Below are positions 5,048 through 54,475 of a stretch of 64,000 nucleotides of DNA, piece by piece. The notes below the pieces were generated by a model, which saw only the letters and a list, made by a program, of their open reading frames with translations, made no database searches and was not told where the DNA came from. Both the position numbers and the translations under genes were made by a program. Each line of letters begins with the position of its first letter. Within the stretch, counting starts at the first letter, position 1. This stretch comes from an uncultured Paracoccaceae bacterium (GTDB lineage: Bacteria; Pseudomonadota; Alphaproteobacteria; Rhodobacterales; Rhodobacteraceae), in NCBI GenBank assembly GCA_947497985.1, contig CANMIX010000013.1, forward strand, positions 87,641 to 151,640. Reading direction: 5' to 3'.

Positions 5048-5436
5048 CACAGAAGGCTGGACGGCCGCGTTGCAGCAATGCGCGAGGAAAGTCCGGGCTC
5101 CACAAAGCAACGGTGCCGGGTAACGCCCGGGCGGGGTGACCCGACGGAAAGCGCCACAGAAAACAAACCGCCCTGCATGTCGGGGTAAGGATGAAACGGT
5201 GGAGTAAGAGCCCACCGCGCCCTTGGCAACAAGGGTGGCACGGCAAGCCCCACCAGGAGCAATGCCAAATAGGGTCCCCGCGCGGGCAGGTCGGGCAACC
5301 GATACCGCCGCTAGGTAAGCTTTGACCGAGAGGGACCGGGTTGGCAGCTAGAGGTGTCTGGTAACAGGCATCGCAGATGAATGGTCGTCCAGAGGCGTTC
5401 AGCCTTGGACAAAACCCGGCTTACAGGCCTTCTGTG
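5048..5436 (+). ncRNA. rnpB: RNase P RNA (bacterial class A)
   Basis: This is the catalytic RNA that matures the 5' end of tRNAs. The hallmark conserved block GAGGAAAGTCCGGGCTCCAC starts at 5084, a CACAGAAA segment lies near 5155 and the distal block AGATGAATGG begins near 5374. The ends were set by the P1 helix: CACAGAAGG at 5048-5056 pairs exactly with CCTTCTGTG at 5428-5436. About 389 nt is normal for Alphaproteobacteria. Reading frames across it are spurious. Confidence 0.97.
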
Positions 5437-5845
5437 CAAATAGGCTTTCGCAAGCGGACTGGCCACTCTCCCCAAATGGCTTATTTGATTTCATAGACAA
5501 AGCTTTGGCCTTGCACCGCGACCGTGTTCCCTGATCAGCCTTAGTGCATCTCCCGGTCAGACTGATCTCGCACGCGTTGAGTAAAGCCTTGGGCCGCTGA
5601 ACTGTACCGCTGCGAATTGCAAGCAAGCACTGCAACTCATTTTCATATGCATACACGAACATCATTGTTCACCGAATGAGACCTTGGCGACAGTTAGGTC
5701 AATGTCAGCAAGGCGGACGAAGCTGCCGTTCATTCTGACTGCCCAACTGCCTGCTTTGGCCTTTTAGGAGAACTCTAACGATACGCCTCATGATCACTTA
5801 GTTTTAGCGTGTTAATTGTCTGCAGATTTGGCTAGATAAGAACCC
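5437..5845. other. gene-free stretch downstream of rnpB
   Basis: No convincing coding region, RNA or repeat is seen in these 409 bases. The sequence becomes visibly richer in A and T than the rnpB side and continues into the orphan gene at 5846. The only long frame overlaps rnpB on the minus strand and has no recognisable product. Confidence 0.5.
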
Positions 5846-17837: not shown

Positions 17838-18653
17838 ATGCGTATTTTGTTTCTAGGCGATGTGATGGGCCGCGCGGGGCGCAAGGCTGTCATCGAAGGT
17901 CTTCCCAAACTGCGGGAAGAGTGGAAATTGGACTTTGTCATTGTGAACGGCGAAAACGCCTCCAATGGCATGGGGCTGAATGGAGAGCACGCCAAGGCGC
18001 TTTTGGCGGCTGGGGTCGATTGCTTGACTCTGGGTGACCACGCCTTTGATCAAAAGGACATGCTGCAGTTCATTGAGAGTGAAAGCCGCATTGTCCGACC
18101 TCTGAATTTTGCCAAAGGCGCGCCGGGACGTGGCCATCGCCTGTTTTCTGCGCCCGGTGGGCGTAAGGTTCTGGTGCTGCAAGCGCTGGGGCAGGTATTT
18201 ATGAAGCGCGCCTATGACGACCCGTTTGGTGCGGTTGAGGGCGTGTTGAAATCACACCCGCGTGGCGGGTTGGCCCAGGCAATCATCGTGGATATGCATT
18301 GCGAGGCAACGTCCGAGAAGATGGCAATGGGCCATTTCTGCAATGGCAAGGCCTCGCTGGTCGTGGGGACCCATACCCATGTGCCCACAGGCGACGCACA
18401 GATCCTGTCAAATGGTACAGCATATCTGACCGATGCAGGCATGTGTGGTGACTATAATTCTGTAATCGGGATGGAAAAAGCTGAGCCGATGCGTCGCTTC
18501 CTGACTGGGATGCCCAAAGGTCGGTTTACGCCAGCAGAAGGCGAGGCCACACTGTCCGGTGTCTATGTAGAAACTGATGACCGCACAGGCGCGGCGACCA
18601 AAATACGAATGGTGCGCCAAGGTGGTCTGTTGCAGCCAAGCAGCGCAATCTAG
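17838..18653 (+). CDS. YmdB/TIGR00282 family metallophosphoesterase
   Basis: The 271-residue protein begins MRILFLGDVMGRAGRKAV and carries VNGENASNGMG, LGDHAFDQK, DMHCEATSEK and VVGTHTHVPTGDAQIL, the dinuclear metal ligands of the calcineurin-like YmdB family. Bacillus YmdB hydrolyses cyclic nucleotides, so a signalling phosphodiesterase role is a guess here. AGGGAGTGGC precedes the start. A structured repeat (18683-18838) begins 30 bases after the stop. Confidence 0.9.
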   Translation: MRILFLGDVMGRAGRKAVIEGLPKLREEWKLDFVIVNGENASNGMGLNGEHAKALLAAGVDCLTLGDHAFDQKDMLQFIESESRIVRPLNFAKGAPGRGHRLFSAPGGRKVLVLQALGQVFMKRAYDDPFGAVEGVLKSHPRGGLAQAIIVDMHCEATSEKMAMGHFCNGKASLVVGTHTHVPTGDAQILSNGTAYLTDAGMCGDYNSVIGMEKAEPMRRFLTGMPKGRFTPAEGEATLSGVYVETDDRTGAATKIRMVRQGGLLQPSSAI

Positions 18654-18682: not shown

Positions 18683-18838
18683 CTCCCGCCCGTGTCGGCA
18701 CATTCACAGAATGTACCTCTCCCGTTGGGCCGGGCGCCGCGCTGGCGCGCGGCGTGCGCGCCCAAGCGAACGGCGCAGGTGCACATGCTGCGGTTGCAAT
18801 CGTCCTGTTGCGGGCAGAAGCACTTGCCCCGCTGGGAG
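18683..18838 (+). repeat. structured intergenic repeat, copy A (divergent)
   Basis: The copy starts with box CTCCCGCCCGT (18683-18693). A hairpin ACATTC-aca-GAATGT follows, then box TCTCCCGTTGGGC. Next is a perfect 8-bp hairpin CGCCGCGC/GCGCGGCG (18735-18742 with 18747-18754) and a GCGCCCAAG box. The right end at GCTGGGAGGG is uncertain. It shares box order with copies B and C but lacks their second large hairpin. Confidence 0.65.
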
Positions 18839-47654: not shown

Positions 47655-48587
47655 ATGAAAGTGTTTTTGCACATCGGCGCCCATCGCTGCGCCACCACAA
47701 CGTTTCAAGAGTATATGCGCCAGAACCGCGCGCAAACCGCCCATGACGGTATCGCCTATTGGGGGCCGCAGGTGACCCGATCCGGTCTGTTCCAAGGGGT
47801 TCTGCCGGGGCCGCAGCTGCTGCCCAAAGGTGACGCCAAACAACGGGCACGCGGTCGGATCAAGCTGAAGCTTGCGAGCGAACGCGCCACCGGTTTTGAC
47901 CAGCTGGTGGTCTCGGATGAAAACATCCTCGGCTCTATGCGCCAGAACCTGCACCTTGGCACGCTTTATGGTGACGCTGGGGATCGGCTCGACCGGTTCA
48001 GCTCCGCGTTTGATGGCGAACTGACGGACGTTGTTGTTAATATTCGTGCGCTGGACCACTATTGGACCTCTGCGCTGACCTATGGTGTGGCACGCGGCTT
48101 CCCGTTCCCAACCGAGGATATGCTGGACCGCTACGCAAAGTCTCAGCGCAGCTGGCGCGATGTGATCACCGATATCGCCACGGCTCTGCCAAACGTGAAC
48201 ATCTGGGTGCAACCCTTTGAAACCTTTGGGGGTCGCCCCAACGCACAGCTCAGCTCGATGACTGGTAAGCGTGCCCCACGTGCCCATGCCCGCATCCGTT
48301 TGGCGCGCTCGCCGCGGGTTGAGGAACTGTCCGCCTATCTGATGGATCAAGACGCCGCCAAACTGGCCGACCAATACGGTCTGTGGCGTCCGTTCAATAC
48401 CGAACAAACCGCGCTGCTGCGCGAGACCTATGCCGATGACATCATGTGGCTGGTCGCGGGGGCCGATGGGCTGGCGCGGATTGCCGAAGACAACCAAGAA
48501 CAAGCGGAAGACGCAAAAACATTCCGCAGAACATTGACACGAGGAAGGCCCAATGACCAAAACCGACGATTGGCGGGATCTGGCTGA
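47655..48587 (+). CDS. sulfotransferase-like protein
   Basis: The 310-residue protein starts [20 protein letters not shown]; the HIGAHR-TTxFQ pattern is like the 5'-PSB phosphate loop of PAPS-dependent sulfotransferases. A VVSDEN motif near 88 and [12 protein letters not shown] near 125 fit the fold. The substrate is unknown; the catalytic assignment is weak. Its last 35 bases overlap scpA, so translation of the two is probably coupled. Confidence 0.7.
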
Positions 48588-50679
48588 AAAAGAGCTGCGC
48601 GGACGCCCGCTTGACGACCTGACCTGGAACACGCTCGAAGGCATCGAGGTCAAGCCGCTCTATACCGAAGACGACACCAAGGAGCTCAACCATATGGGCT
48701 CCTTGCCGGGGTTTGGCCCCTTTACCCGCGGGGTAAAAGCCACAATGTATGCGGGGCGTCCCTGGACCATCCGCCAATACGCTGGCTTCTCCACCGCCGA
48801 GGAATCCAACGCATTTTATCGCCGCAACTTGGCCGCTGGCCAACAGGGCGTTTCGGTCGCCTTTGACCTTGCCACCCACCGGGGCTACGACAGTGACCAC
48901 CCCCGCGTGGTCGGCGATGTGGGCAAGGCCGGCGTTGCCATCGACAGCGTCGAGGATATGAAAATCCTCTTTGATGGCATCCCCTTGGACAAGGTTTCGG
49001 TCTCCATGACCATGAACGGCGCGGTGATCCCGATCCTTGCCAGTTTCATTGTTGCAGGCGAAGAACAGGGCCATGACAAGGCGTTGCTGTCGGGCACCAT
49101 TCAGAACGATATTCTGAAAGAATTTATGGTGCGCAACACCTATATCTATCCGCCCGAACCCTCAATGCGGATCATCTCGGACATTATCGAATATACCTCG
49201 AACGAGATGCCGAAATTCAATTCCATCTCGATCTCCGGCTACCACATGCAAGAGGCTGGCGCGAACCTTGTGCAGGAGCTCGCTTATACGCTGGCGGACG
49301 GGCGCGAATATGTGCGCGCTGCGATGAACGCGGGCATGGATGTTGACAAATTTGCCGGCCGCCTGTCGTTCTTCTTCGCGATCGGCATGAATTTCTTCAT
49401 GGAAATCAGCAAGCTGCGCGCCGCACGGACCCTGTGGCACCGGGTGATGACCGACTTTGGCGCGCAAAACGAACGCTCCAAAATGCTGCGCACCCATTGC
49501 CAGACCTCGGGCGTGTCCTTGCAGGAGCAAGACCCTTATAACAACGTGATCCGCACCGCGTATGAGGCGATGTCAGCGGTTCTGGGTGGCACGCAATCTC
49601 TGCACACCAACGCTCTGGATGAGGCGATCGCGCTGCCCACCGATTTCTCCGCCCGCATCGCCCGCAACACTCAGCTTGTGCTGCAAGAAGAAACCGGTGT
49701 CACCAATGTGGTCGACCCGCTGGCGGGCAGCTACTATGTGGAAAGCCTCACCAATGATCTGATCGAAAAAGCCTGGGCCCTGATGGAAGAGGTCGAGGAG
49801 ATGGGCGGCATGACCAAAGCCGTCGCCTCGGGCATGCCCAAACTGCGGATTGAAGAGTCGGCGGCGCGCCGTCAGGCGATGATCGACCGCGGCGAAGAGG
49901 TGATCGTCGGCGTCAACAAATACCGCAAGGACAAGGAAGACCCGATCGACATTCTGGACGTGGACAATGTCGCCGTGCGCGACAGCCAGATCGCCCGCCT
50001 GGAACAGATCCGCGCAACACGCGATGAGGCCACGTGTGAGGCCGCATTGAATGAACTCACCCGCCGCGCCAAGGATGGCGGCAACCTTCTGGAGGCCGCG
50101 GTTGAGGCGGCCCGTGCACGTGCTTCTGTTGGGGAGATCAGCATGGCAATGGAGAAAGAATTCGGCCGCCACTCGGCGGAAGTGAAGACATTGGCCGGCG
50201 TCTATGGGGCAGCCTATGAAGGCGACGAAGGCTTTGCCGCGATCCAGAAATCAATAGAAGACTTTGCCGAAGAAGAGGGCCGCCGCCCGCGTCTTCTGGT
50301 GGTGAAAATGGGTCAGGATGGCCATGACCGCGGGGCTAAGGTGATTGCCACAGCCTTTGCCGACATCGGCTTTGACGTGGACGTGGGTCCCTTGTTCCAG
50401 ACGCCAGAAGAGGCCGCGCAGGATGCGGTCGACAATGACGTTCATGTGGTGGGCATCTCTTCGCAGGCAGCAGGCCACAAAACACTGGCCCCGCAGCTGG
50501 TAGAAGAGTTGAAGAAGCAAGGTGCCGAAGACATCATCGTGATCTGCGGCGGTGTGATCCCACAGCAGGATTACGACTTCCTCTATGGGGCGGGGGTAAA
50601 GGCGATCTTCGGCCCCGGCACCAATATCCCGGAAGCGGCCGAAGACATCCTGAACCTAATCCGCGCCGCGCGCACCTAA
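48553..50679 (+). CDS. scpA: methylmalonyl-CoA mutase
   Basis: The 708-residue enzyme converts (R)-methylmalonyl-CoA to succinyl-CoA. It has the substrate barrel ([28 protein letters not shown]) and the C-terminal B12 domain (about 575-705) with the base-off motif DGHDRG, then SSQAAGHK and [18 protein letters not shown] precedes the ATG, inside the preceding gene. It completes the pcc pathway; no epimerase gene is seen. Repeat copy B follows. Confidence 0.97.
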
Positions 50680-50712
50680 CCGTTGTGACTCCGGGGCTCA
50701 GGGCGGAGAGAT

Positions 50713-50898
50713 CCTCCCGCGCCCGCAGCTGTACATGCCTTCGGCACATACAGCTTCTGTGCGGCCTTGGGCATGGCAGGCACGCCGGGGAACCCCCGGC
50801 GTGCCTGCTGCGCCTTTGCGCGCTCGTGACGAGCGCGCAAAGGCGCCACCCCCAACGGAAGCCGTCCCACACATTGTGGGGCAGGCGACGGGCGGGAG
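50713..50898 (-). repeat. structured intergenic repeat, copy B
   Basis: Read on the minus strand, the element begins CTCCCGCCCGTC and ends GGGCGCGGGAGG, an inverted end pair. Inside are four stems: CCCACA/TGTGGG (50866-50880); the 18-bp perfect GCGCCTTTGCGCGCTCGT/ACGAGCGCGCAAAGGCGC (50810-50846); the 15-bp perfect GCAGGCACGCCGGGG with its complement (50776-50808); and AGCTGTA/TACAGCT around TGCC-GAA-GGCA. Boxes TTCCGTTGGG and GCCCAAGGCC are shared with copy C. Confidence 0.85.
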
Positions 50899-50969
50899 TG
50901 GACCCTTGGCATTTCGGCAAAAACCGCCATGTTAGAGGTTCGTCAGCTCAGGAAACGAGGGGTGCCTTA

Positions 50970-51569
50970 ATGTTGAACTTGGATCATCTGGTCATCGCGG
51001 GGGAAACTTTGGCAGACGCGCAATACTACGTGGAACAGACCCTTGGTGTAAAAATGCAACCTGGTGGCCAGCACGCAGTTTTTGCCACCCATAACGCGCT
51101 CTTACATTTAGACGACGGGATCTATCTTGAAGCAATTGCTAAAGAGCCTGGAGCTGTCCCTGAACGCAGCCCGTGTTGGTACGCATTGGATCATTTTTCC
51201 GGAGGGCCGCGCCTGTCGAATTGGGCCTGTCGTACCGATCAACCGCAACAGGCCGCCAATCGCTGGCCAGAGGCTGGTTCACCTATTGAGCTGGCACGCG
51301 GCGATCTGCAATGGCAGATGTTTGTTCCGGAAACCGGCAAGCTTCCTTATGATAATCTCTTTCCGGCTTTGCTGTCTTGGCAGGGCGCACATCCGACCGA
51401 GCGCCTTTCACCAAAGGGATGCAGTTTGCGCCGCTTCGTTGTGTCCCATCCTCAGGCGATGGATCTTCGATCCAGCTTGGCTCTTGAGGACAGCAGGTTG
51501 GTTTTTGAAGCTGGTCCGCCGGGACTGCGGGCGGAAATTGAGACGCCACACGGCCTGCGGGTGCTGTGA
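50970..51569 (+). CDS. VOC/glyoxalase-like domain protein
   Basis: The 199-residue protein starts MLNLDHLVIAGETLADAQYY and has LLHLDDGIYLEAIA, like the Glyoxalase_3-type VOC domain. It is longer than methylmalonyl-CoA epimerase and lacks its pattern, so the position beside scpA does not make it the epimerase. Function is unknown. GAGGGG stands before the ATG; the repeat copy B lies upstream. Confidence 0.82.
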   Translation: MLNLDHLVIAGETLADAQYYVEQTLGVKMQPGGQHAVFATHNALLHLDDGIYLEAIAKEPGAVPERSPCWYALDHFSGGPRLSNWACRTDQPQQAANRWPEAGSPIELARGDLQWQMFVPETGKLPYDNLFPALLSWQGAHPTERLSPKGCSLRRFVVSHPQAMDLRSSLALEDSRLVFEAGPPGLRAEIETPHGLRVL

Positions 51570-51676
51570 CGGTGCAAAAGGTGGCACGCACACCGCGTGA
51601 TGCGTCTGCCGTGTTTTCCCCAGTTTGCGACGCTTTGGCCCCTGACATTGCATCCTCCAGCAGATAAGATCAGCAC

Positions 51677-52375
51677 ATGTCACTTTGGACCCGTATATCT
51701 GACGCATTGTCCGCCCTAGCCAAGGGCGCAAGCCTGTCTGAGGTGTTTGAGCACCTGCGTACACCGCCAGAACGTTCGGTGGGTTTTGCCATTGCGGTCG
51801 TCGCTCTGGGAGCCAAAATGGCCAAAGCAGACGGGCTGGTCACACGGGACGAGGTGACCGCGTTTCGTGAGGTGTTTCGCATTGCACCCGGCGATGAACT
51901 GGGGGCTGCAAAAGTCTTTAACCTCGCGCGCCAAGATGTTGCAGGATATCAGGATTATGCTCGCCGCATCCGGGTGATGTTTGCTGATGATCCGACCACT
52001 TTATGTGACTTGATGGAGGGGCTGTTTCACATCGCAATGGCAGATGGGTTTTACCACCCAGGTGAAAATGCCTTTCTCGAAGATGTCAGCGACATTTTTG
52101 GCCAGACACCACAGCAATTCTCAGCCCTGCGCGCGCGCTTTGTGCCGGACGCGCCGCGCGATCCCTATACGGTGCTTGGTGTCAGCCCGGATGCCCCCAA
52201 GGATGAGATCCGCAAACATTGGCGTCGCCTTGTGCGCGAAACCCACCCCGATGCAATGATGGCACGCGGGGTGCCCGAAGAGGCGGTGCGCTTGGCAGAG
52301 AAAAAGATGATCGACATCAATCGCGCCTGGGATCAAATCAACGGCTGTGGTGGTCATGCGTCTCACCACATATAA
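51677..52375 (+). CDS. DjlA-like TerB/DnaJ co-chaperone
   Basis: The 232-residue protein has a TerB-like N-terminal domain (about 25-140, with VVALGAKMAKADGLVT and HIAMADGFYHPGE) and a C-terminal J-domain (about 160-225: DPYTVLGVSPDAPKDEIR, then RRLVRETHPD). The HPD tripeptide is intact, so it should stimulate an Hsp70. No membrane anchor is present, unlike E. coli DjlA. It overlaps the next gene by 20 bases. Confidence 0.9.
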   Translation: MSLWTRISDALSALAKGASLSEVFEHLRTPPERSVGFAIAVVALGAKMAKADGLVTRDEVTAFREVFRIAPGDELGAAKVFNLARQDVAGYQDYARRIRVMFADDPTTLCDLMEGLFHIAMADGFYHPGENAFLEDVSDIFGQTPQQFSALRARFVPDAPRDPYTVLGVSPDAPKDEIRKHWRRLVRETHPDAMMARGVPEEAVRLAEKKMIDINRAWDQINGCGGHASHHI

Positions 52376-53351
52376 CGTTGAATGGTTTGCGACTCTGTTT
52401 GATCAGAACGATGCGCTGATCCTGGACAGCACACGCTCCAGCCGCTTTGACGTCACACGCGCTGAGCAAGCCACAGCATTGGCTACAGTCTTTCAAGCGC
52501 TTGATTCTGATGCGGTTCTGGTGGTGGAGGCCCCAGACACAGGGCGCGGCCAAAGCACCATTCGTGCTCTGGAACATTTCGCCAATTGGGCGGATGTTCG
52601 CGCGCGACGTGCGGTAATCGGCTTTGCCAATGACACTCAGCAAGAGATTGCACTGTTGTATGATCCGGACGTGTTACATGCCCGACACGTGCCACACAGT
52701 CACCCCGGAGCGCCGCAGTTTGATGGTGTTTTCGAGTTGGATCTCGACGTGGATGAACTGGTCGATCAGGTCCGGTTCTCAAAACCACCGCTTGAGCTGG
52801 AGGTCACCGCAGGCAATGGTCGAAAATTGAACGTGATTGGTGCACATCTGAAGTCCAAGGCCCCCCATGGCGCCCGCACGGATGAGGATGTGATGCGGAT
52901 CTCAATTGCCAATCGACGCAAGCAATTGGCGCAAGCAATTTGGTTGCGCCGTAGGGTCGCTTGGCTATTAGAGCAGGGGCACGACCTTTTGGTGATGGGG
53001 GATCTCAATGATGGTCCGGGGCTCGATGAATACGAGGCTCTGTTTGGCCGCTCCTCGGTCGAAATCATTATGGGGGATGAGCTGTTTGACCCTCATGCGC
53101 AGATCCTGTGCCAGCCACGGCCAAGTGGCCTGCCTGCAACTGCGCGGTTTTTTGACAGGGATCACAATCGGTTTTTCGGCGCTTTGCTGGATTATGCAAT
53201 GATCTCACCTGGGCTGCGCGGCTTGAACCCAGAGTGGCGGATTTGGCACCCGTTCGATGATGCTGAGATCTATGCTGATGTTGCCCTGCGTACAGCTCTT
53301 TTGCAGGCCTCGGACCATTTTCCGGTGACACTGGATCTTGAGATCAACTGA
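52356..53351 (+). CDS. endonuclease/exonuclease/phosphatase family protein
   Basis: The 331-residue protein has the EEP fold: LTTYNVEWF at the start, NVIGAHLKSK near 160, GDLNDGPG near 210, YAMISPGL and a final SDHFPVTLDL with the catalytic Asp-His. It could act on phosphodiesters in nucleic acid or lipid; the substrate is unknown. I chose ATG 52356 (MRLTTYNVEW) over upstream GTG codons. It overlaps the djlA-like gene; repeat C follows. Confidence 0.88.
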   Translation: MRLTTYNVEWFATLFDQNDALILDSTRSSRFDVTRAEQATALATVFQALDSDAVLVVEAPDTGRGQSTIRALEHFANWADVRARRAVIGFANDTQQEIALLYDPDVLHARHVPHSHPGAPQFDGVFELDLDVDELVDQVRFSKPPLELEVTAGNGRKLNVIGAHLKSKAPHGARTDEDVMRISIANRRKQLAQAIWLRRRVAWLLEQGHDLLVMGDLNDGPGLDEYEALFGRSSVEIIMGDELFDPHAQILCQPRPSGLPATARFFDRDHNRFFGALLDYAMISPGLRGLNPEWRIWHPFDDAEIYADVALRTALLQASDHFPVTLDLEIN

Positions 53352-53389
53352 ACACAACTGCGGTCAGTGAACGAGTTAGCAAAAAAACT

Positions 53390-53547
53390 CTCCCGCCCGT
53401 CACCTGCTGTGCTGTTGCACAGCGGTTCCCGTTGGGCGTGGCGCGGACCCTTTGGGTCCGCGCGGCAGGCAACCCTGCCGGGTTGCCTGCCCGGCCCAAG
53501 GCCACCAGGGGGCATGCCGAAAGGCAGGTCACGCGTGGGCGCGGGAG
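53390..53547 (+). repeat. structured intergenic repeat, copy C
   Basis: The element begins CTCCCGCCCGTC and ends GGGCGCGGGAG. Stems in order: GCTGTGC/GCACAGC (53406-53423), GCGCGGACCC/GGGTCCGCGC (53441-53463), GGCAGGCAACCC/GGGTTGCCTGCC (53464-53491) and TGCC-GAAA-GGCA. Boxes TTCCCGTTGGGCGTGGCGC and GCCCAAGGCC match copy B, while the stem sequences differ. It lies between two convergent genes. Confidence 0.85.
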
Positions 53548-53590
53548 GGGTTGCTTGTGTCTGGGTGGTCTGCGCGCGTGCGAAGGTGAT

Positions 53591-54475
53591 TTACTCTGCG
53601 GCCTCTTGTTTCAACCACCGTAGAAATAGGTCTGCTGTTTCTGGTGCCGTGCGATGATTGGGCAGGGCGGCCAGAAACCCATCCCGGCCGTGCACAAATC
53701 CCAAAGGCGCGATCAGGCGTCCTTGCTCCAGATCTTGCGCCACCAAGCGCCGTTCCGTCAGTGCCATGCCCATCCCGGCCGCTGCGGCCTCAAGCGCCAG
53801 GATATGATGCGGGTGTTCGCGGATTTCTGGGCTGTGCACCTGACGTCCGGAAATCTCTTCCCAGACCGACCAGGCCGAGGGGCCTCCGGTATGACTAAAG
53901 CGCATCGGCACATGGCCGTCCTCTCCGCGATGTTCAAACGCGTAACCTGGTGCACAAACTGGGCCATAGGACGCATCGCCCATGACCACCGTGCGAAATC
54001 CCGGTCCAATCGGGCCGCGTAAGCGATCATAGCTCAGCAAAATGTCGAAATCCTCGCCCGAATACCGCGGCTGCCCGGCGATCAGGCCGGACATCAGCAG
54101 GGTGATCTCTACCTGCGGGTGGGTTGCGTAAAATCGGGGCAGCCGCGCAGTCAGCCAGCGGGTCGCAAAGGTCGCGCCAACCGCTATTCGCAACAGCCGT
54201 TGATCCGATCCTCCGCGCATCTCAGCGGCCAGCTCACCAATCCGGCGCAGCATCGGCGACAGTTCGGCTTGCAGCCGCTCACCGCGTTCCGTCAGTACCA
54301 AACCAGTGCCAGATTTGCGAAACAGATCGCCACCCAGATCCTGTGCCAGATGTTTGATCTGTTTGCTCACCGCACTATGGGTGCGGCCCAACTCGCTGGC
54401 GGCTGCAGTGACGGATCCCAGTCGGGCTGTGGCTTCAAAAGCGGGTAGGGCGGTGAGGGGCGGTAGATGTGACAT
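53591..54475 (-). CDS. LysR-family regulator (GcvA-like)
   Basis: The 294-residue regulator starts MSHLPPLTALPAFEATARLG, typical of the GcvA-like branch, with HTH at about 20-55 (SVTAAASELGRTHSAVSKQI) and a ligand domain from about 95. The effector is unknown. It is divergent from a DUF1127-like gene, the second such pair in the window, with a dyad in the shared region. Confidence 0.9.
   Translation of the reverse strand: MSHLPPLTALPAFEATARLGSVTAAASELGRTHSAVSKQIKHLAQDLGGDLFRKSGTGLVLTERGERLQAELSPMLRRIGELAAEMRGGSDQRLLRIAVGATFATRWLTARLPRFYATHPQVEITLLMSGLIAGQPRYSGEDFDILLSYDRLRGPIGPGFRTVVMGDASYGPVCAPGYAFEHRGEDGHVPMRFSHTGGPSAWSVWEEISGRQVHSPEIREHPHHILALEAAAAGMGMALTERRLVAQDLEQGRLIAPLGFVHGRDGFLAALPNHRTAPETADLFLRWLKQEAAE

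Follow-up and report, generated by a model that had tools for sequence, protein, structure and literature searches.

The window, by which we mean the whole 64-kb stretch of DNA analysed here, holds three copies of a multi-hairpin repeat, each close to a gene end. Copy B lies 34 nt past the stop codon of a methylmalonyl-CoA mutase gene (48553–50679, plus strand). Copy C lies between the convergent genes Exo_endo_phos (52347–53351, plus strand) and LysR (53591–54475, minus strand), 38 nt and 43 nt from their respective stop codons. Copy A, which the initial annotation mentioned without giving its location, corresponds to a third copy that we found 29 nt past the stop of a YmdB-like phosphoesterase gene (17838–18653, plus strand). 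The element proposed at copy B was confirmed, but its start had been placed one base early, at 50713. Each element runs in the order P1, hairpin P2, central P3 and hairpin P4, and its parts are as follows.

50714–50898, minus strand: copy B, whole element, 185 nt, two central stems
50892–50898, minus strand: copy B, P1 5′ arm CTCCCGC, pairs with 50714–50720 (sequence and fold)
50866–50880, minus strand: copy B, hairpin P2, 6 bp, loop of 3 (sequence and fold)
50810–50846, minus strand: copy B, first central stem, 18 bp, perfect (repeat listing and fold)
50776–50808, minus strand: copy B, second central stem, 15 bp, perfect (repeat listing and fold)
50727–50755, minus strand: copy B, hairpin P4, 13 pairs in the fold (sequence and fold)
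53390–53547, plus strand: copy C, whole element, 158 nt
53390–53396, plus strand: copy C, P1 5′ arm CTCCCGC, pairs with 53541–53547 (sequence and fold)
53406–53423, plus strand: copy C, hairpin P2, 7 bp, loop of 4 (sequence and fold)
53432–53499, plus strand: copy C, P3, closed by TTGGGC/GCCCAA (sequence, repeat listing and fold)
53510–53529, plus strand: copy C, hairpin P4, limits approximate (sequence and fold)
18683–18838, plus strand: copy A, 5′ half and centre recognizable, 3′ (P4) part diverged

The P3 of copy C contains two perfect stems, one of 10 bp at 53441–53463 (from sequence and fold) and one of 12 bp at 53464–53491 (from the repeat listing). The boxes and stems previously described for copies B and C were all present, and the large stems pair without a mismatch (for B, 18 and 15 bp; for C, 10 and 12 bp). 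CTCCCGCCCGTC and GGGCGCGGGAG each occur exactly twice in the window, once in copy B and once in copy C, and GGCCCAAGGCC is exact in copy C and has one mismatch in copy B. Single boxes with mismatches allowed were not above chance frequency in the window; it is the combination of boxes that counts. RNA folding gave z-scores of −11.2 for copy B and −5.9 for copy C, and for each copy none of 200 shuffles was equally stable. Searched against Rfam at the gathering score, the window returned RNase P alone (a bacterial class A RNase P RNA at 5049–5439, plus strand, 295 bits) and no family for the element; searches around individual copies gave weak matches only, below the gathering score. One of these, a partial match of copy C to RT-15 RNA (RF03018; 26.7 bits against a gathering score of 82), was treated as chance, and none of six other copies searched matched RT-15 at E ≤ 1. 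RT motifs are reportedly the subject of work by Weinberg in 2017.

Distribution and fold of the family

BLAST with copies B and C detected more copies elsewhere in the same genome. The initial annotation had named a lack of further copies or of covariation as grounds for rejecting the element, and on both points the outcome favoured it. With a first covariance model built from seven copies, we located 21 distinct places in this 4.19-Mb genome at E ≤ 0.001 (30 matches with both strands counted), and the covariation was strong. All 18 genomes of the genus gave matches with the model, from 2 to 37 each with both strands counted. When the own genome and relatives were searched as a set of 41, 20 matched, namely the 18 genus genomes and two of the seven from other Rhodobacteraceae genera, and none of the 16 genomes from other families did. 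At least 14 of 295 genomes in a family-wide sample matched at E ≤ 1e-4, with ten candidates scored per genome. In a class-wide sample, a second model (R2) matched none of the 288 other genomes, with at most 11 candidates scored per genome, and the own genome was the sole match of the 289.

A pattern scan of named genomes, which also picks up chance matches in unrelated bacteria, gave Leisingera, Phaeobacter, Pseudophaeobacter, Ruegeria, Tropicibacter, Tritonibacter, Epibacterium and others among the matches listed; many of these loci also match the covariance model. Since the pattern requires two conserved boxes, the conservation of those two boxes is inflated in the loci found with it. Three loci titled Nocardioides marinus DP1N28-1 (L020, L048 and L097) were also among the pattern matches listed, two of them (L020 and L097) matching the covariance model as well; this assembly is possibly a misnamed Rhodobacteraceae. 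When a single copy was used as query, plasmid sequences gave four matching records (Parasedimentitalea, Tritonibacter) and phage sequences none. The sole pattern match in a viral contig (L324:10684–10735) lies inside a long open reading frame, UvrD-type helicase-like by eye, and was taken as chance.

The counts below rest on 130 distinct copies (from 136 entries), which are part of the known copies. They include 57 hand-picked matches from outside the genus set, most of which score about 48 bits or higher and are uncut by a locus end, together with 18 taken from the family-wide search. Left out despite scores above about 48 bits were at least L040, L075, L092, L175, L176, L203, L207 and L210; unfetched genus copies and one set of loci used for orthologues only were left out too.

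Elements are mostly about 125–220 nt long, and 80 of the 130 measure 124–138 nt. P1 (CTCCCGC/GCGGGAG) is nearly invariant, P2 is variable, and P4 is a variable hairpin with a GCCGC...GCGGGC foot. In short copies the TTGGGC/GCCCAA of P3 closes a stem of about 18 bp, and in longer copies it closes two or three stems. We aligned 55 non-redundant short copies, which are 125–137 nt long by selection. All but one start with CTCCCGC (CTTCCAC in the other), and 99% of cells in the P1 terminal inverted repeats are paired. Over the whole structure, 87.7% of cells pair, against 38–48% when the partners are slid. With the structure drawn by hand on the same alignment, there were 354 double-change cells compared with 121 after shuffling, a value as high being reached in 0 of 500 shuffles. 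The same was seen at a single site, grouped by its flanking proteins and adjoining a gene that by eye resembles an oligopeptide-transporter ATPase: nine copies there, from several genera (five genus genomes, Leisingera L043 and L066, Pseudophaeobacter L067, and L120), gave 33 double-change cells against 9.2 shuffled, and again none of 500 shuffles reached that value.

Within about 16 nt of the ends, the flanks of the 130 copies show weak, mutually complementary base preferences, with purines and then A before the element and pyrimidines and then T after it. We rejected an extended outer stem: the flanks are complementary in average composition, yet show little covariation copy by copy.

Gene ends, terminators and shared sites

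Genes were called without annotation, using our own codon-usage caller trained on the window. Among the 125 copies that could be classified, some of them orthologous to one another, 73 lie between convergent, 49 between codirectional and 3 between divergent genes; of the other five, three overlap a called gene and two are edge cases. The 260 element-free spacers of at least 100 nt used as control split into 36 convergent, 125 codirectional and 99 divergent (P 6e-19 and 1e-16). Collapsing related sites to 73 groups left 41 convergent, 25 codirectional, 3 divergent and 4 unclassified. The copies of the own genome are 12 convergent, 7 codirectional and 1 divergent, with one overlapping, so that convergent sites make up 12 of 20, compared with 4 of the 31 window spacers that remained after three element spacers were removed by hand (P 6e-4).

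Spacing from the stop codon is tight, with a median of 35 nt (35.5 nt at convergent and 35 nt at codirectional sites); in element-free spacers the median from stop to canonical terminator hairpin is 37 nt (n = 76). In codirectional spacers, the element is nearer the upstream stop in 45 of 49 cases. No orientation preference was seen, 22 elements pointing with the codirectional genes and 27 against them. A canonical terminator lies within 200 nt of 46 of 199 element stops; among control stops the count is 39 of 90 for the convergent ones (P 8e-4) and 63 of 190 for the others. Such a terminator already stands between stop and element at 20 of the 199. Between 50600 and 53800, we detected no terminator-like site in the mutase or the Exo_endo_phos/LysR spacer, the three hits all being intragenic. 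Nor do the 130 copies have a clear U-tract: within 40 nt on the 3′ side, runs of at least four T occur in 19%, against 14% for A runs, and at least six T in eight in 12%, against 7% for A, and there is no matching excess of A runs on the 5′ side (9%).

We then compared sites by their flanking DNA. Fourteen of the 21 places match element-holding stretches of G007, G017, G012 or G002, in a comparison of stretches fetched for their elements, where empty sites could appear at B and C only. In 32 of 33 orthologue comparisons the two elements point the same way, the exception being a near-palindromic pair. In 13 pairs between the own genome and G007, element identity is 0.87, against 0.58 for the aligned 40-nt flanks and 0.36 for unrelated flanks, and changes affect 134 of 1514 paired and 128 of 440 unpaired positions.

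Site B, from the mutase to a glyoxalase-like gene, could be followed in all 18 genus genomes except G015, where it falls at a contig end, and G003, where it is partial at a contig end. The element is full in the own genome, G007 and G017 (with a stretch of N in the last), diverged though still present in G009 and G010, and decayed or truncated in G012, G004, G016, G008, G006 and G001. It was not seen at this site in G011, G014, G002, G005 and G013, and G002 has a canonical terminator there. Site C was comparable in seven relatives: G007 and G017 have a full element there, G012 has a decayed one, and G011, G004, G016 and G001 have none. The spacers lacking the element at B and C are too diverged to place a base-exact empty site. 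The copies are thus common to several species yet can be lost, and because other species lack the element or have it decayed at B and C, it is dispensable at least there. At site B in G004, G016, G008 and G006 (L246, L247, L249 and L255), the CTCCCGC end is lost and two long central stems are kept; decay seems to spare these stems.

Wobble pairs and probable template switching in the stems

In element orientation, P2 carries 48 A-C and 7 G-T pairs (P about 1e-8) and P4 carries 57 G-T and 13 A-C pairs (P about 1e-7), in copies that are not independent. With P2 rich in A-C and P4 rich in G-T, it is the hairpin 3′ of the centre that bears wobble pairs on each strand, a rule that a two-way RNA element would show. 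At codirectional sites the rule is independent of which strand is transcribed, and the transcribed strand has 25 G-U and 32 A-C pairs; strand-specific G-U, looked for there as proof of RNA selection, was not found. Because the rule does not follow local transcription, we kept two other readings of it: it may come from shared ancestry or from dyad-symmetric protein binding.

For the central stem we set the two arms of the 80 short-centred copies against each other ungapped. Of the 1440 positions, 1403 are Watson–Crick, 2 are G-T, 1 is A-C and 34 are other. Across 45 non-independent orthologue comparisons, central-stem positions made 37 switches from one Watson–Crick pair to another and none to G-U or A-C, along with 6 single and 2 double other changes and 765 unchanged. 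Counted as states per column, there are 15 extra Watson–Crick pairs, 1 G-U, 0 A-C and 15 other mismatches, many of these last from one imperfect central variant. By comparison, 15% of pairs are G-U in 146 hairpin-plus-T matches from the same loci, which are not limited to gene ends, and in a Bacillus study G-U is the commonest intermediate in compensatory change (PMC5381666).

Loops can also be inverted between orthologues. This was first spotted by eye and then counted in 41 hairpin pairs, where 5 loops are exact reverse complements, 8 are the same and 28 are other (permutation P 0.0006); the count took all 13 pairs available between the own genome and G007, which gave four of the inversions, and four hand-chosen ones, one of these already known to be inverted. 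Inverted loops occur only in stems of at least 9 bp (5 of 17, against 0 of 24 shorter stems; P 0.008). In PMC8794818, loop inversions and multi-base paired switches are among the template-switch footprints enriched in rRNA genes, and the two together are rare and not enriched there. Watson–Crick switches almost without G-U, and likewise inverted loops, are footprints of DNA template switching, and such switching during replication is probably part of what keeps the long central stems perfect.

This qualifies the earlier view that the fold is selected and not the sequence. The element is structured, covaries and is conserved above its flanks, but for the long central stems the statement goes too far. 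Template switching gives the same pattern of kept fold and changed sequence, so this pattern is not by itself proof of selection there, and the argument for selection rests on conservation above the flanks and on P1, P2 and P4.

A putative two-way 3′-end element and its rivals

The reading that we somewhat favour from context and comparison is a two-way mRNA 3′-end element, dispersed, non-coding and nearly dyad-symmetric, of Roseobacter-group bacteria. RNA from either strand would fold into the closing stem, the first hairpin, the central stem or stems closed by TTGGGC/GCCCAA and the second hairpin, and the element would set or shield the 3′ ends of the mRNAs that reach it from either side. 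It could do so by halting polymerase with no need of a U-tract or, as we judge more likely, by blocking 3′-to-5′ exonucleases after factor-dependent termination; that the element is transcribed at all, and which of the two applies, we infer from the same data. Three options had been put forward initially: a mobile single-stranded DNA element, a structured RNA and a bidirectional terminator. A two-way 3′-end role fits gene context and stop distances best, and the canonical intrinsic form of the terminator falls away for want of a clear U-tract. Several results count against the role we favour. The element is missing or decayed at sites B and C in other species, and the wobble rule is independent of the transcribed strand. 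In the predicted folds of the 33 orthologue comparisons, 181 pairs are broken (with 1450 unchanged and 60 gapped), compared with 86 double and 79 single changes that keep the pair, and a canonical terminator already precedes some of the elements.

A standard intrinsic terminator working in both directions, with a hairpin and a U-tract, would account for position and stop spacing and for the slight 3′-side excess of six or more T in eight, but the low share of copies with a T run (19%, against 14% for A), the missing 5′ A-run excess and a branched form of 130–200 nt with conserved internal boxes, unlike a terminator hairpin, make it very unlikely. Genes for trans-acting small RNAs or strand-specific 3′ UTR RNAs, to which the covarying multi-stem fold would be suited, are hardly credible given the lack of strand preference relative to genes, the absence of an Rfam match at the gathering score in the window, and the fact that the four promoter-like sites in 50600–53800 all fall at 51023–51670, away from the elements. 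A DNA-level element like the BIMEs of E. coli, which bind gyrase, is a more serious but still rather unlikely rival. It would be a gyrase or nucleoid-protein site or a supercoil-absorbing cruciform, with RNA folding incidental. Convergent sites, the lack of orientation preference and the dyad-symmetric hairpin pattern all fit it, as does the near absence of G-U and A-C from the central stem (3 of 1440 positions), at codirectional sites too. Template switching can explain the missing G-U, however, and tight stop spacing also in codirectional pairs, together with fewer canonical terminators, fits an mRNA 3′-end role better.

Mobility was weighed in two forms. The suggestion of a single-stranded DNA element moved in trans by a REP/TnpA-type enzyme found no support: the own genome has no Y1 transposase, target duplication was not found, and sites are shared between species. 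The Y1 family (PF01797) is absent from the own genome and from 15 of the 17 other genus genomes; it occurs in two of the 18 (G010 and G014), and none was found in G000, G007, G012 and G017. Identical flanking words of 3–9 bases, as a target-site duplication would leave, were found in 0 of 130 copies, with about one or fewer expected. A non-autonomous element (MITE) served by a transposase in trans, its gene-end position simply marking where insertions are tolerated, draws on the many dispersed copies, the CTCCCGC/GCGGGAG terminal inverted repeats, the 2 to 37 matches per genus genome (both strands counted) and the lack of the element at B and C in some relatives. We consider it quite improbable in view of the missing duplications, shared sites held in the same orientation, conservation above the flanks, the lack of a phage record matching one copy, and the absence of a transposase from 16 of 18 genus genomes in a search that covered the Y1 family. 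A MITE-like origin is possible for the first spread.

Among known repeats, REP/BIME sequences, with roles in 3′-end protection and attenuation, are likewise dispersed extragenic palindromes (3 of the 130 copies here overlap a called gene). The element most likely works like them without being a member, as the own genome has no RAYT and head motif, size and fold differ: it is mostly about 125–220 nt long, branched and begins with CTCCCGC. ERIC, the RIME of Rhizobium and the CIR of Caulobacter are intergenic palindromic repeats of similar size. GANTC methylation sites are linked with CIR; a Caulobacter-type GANTC repeat was rejected, with GANTC in just 2 of 130 copies. A further difference from these repeats is that R2 matched none of the 288 other genomes sampled across the class, with at most 11 candidates scored in each. 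Titles of RIME and CIR papers appear in the reference list of PMC1273637. Unlike the REP heads and RAYTs described in PMC2817692, the element has no GT(A/G)G head, and copy-rich genomes have no Y1 transposase. The two-way terminators of B. cereus (PMC5381666) are likewise two-way hairpins between convergent genes with compensatory change, but the element here lacks a clear U-tract, is branched and makes its central Watson–Crick switches almost without G-U.

The two-way 3′-end element may also stand for something broader, which we offer as a doubtful extension: one DNA element giving rise to a new strand-symmetric RNA class, with the same branched fold and the same G-U-bearing 3′ hairpin from either strand. 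This RNA would end two convergent mRNAs by a mechanism independent of a U-tract, in which a dedicated protein probably takes part, and template switching would keep the central palindrome perfect and flip its loop.

We found no description of this repeat family of well-studied marine bacteria in Rfam or in the open-licence literature, including the available parts of PMC4809877, PMC2864571, PMC8632094, PMC1273637, PMC2817692, PMC5381666 and PMC8794818. Gene ends that carry the element mostly have no recognizable terminator, and they offer a natural test of U-tract-free ends of convergent transcripts. The family is also a clear case in which compensatory stem change, usually read as proof of RNA selection, bears the marks of template switching, namely few intermediates and inverted loops.
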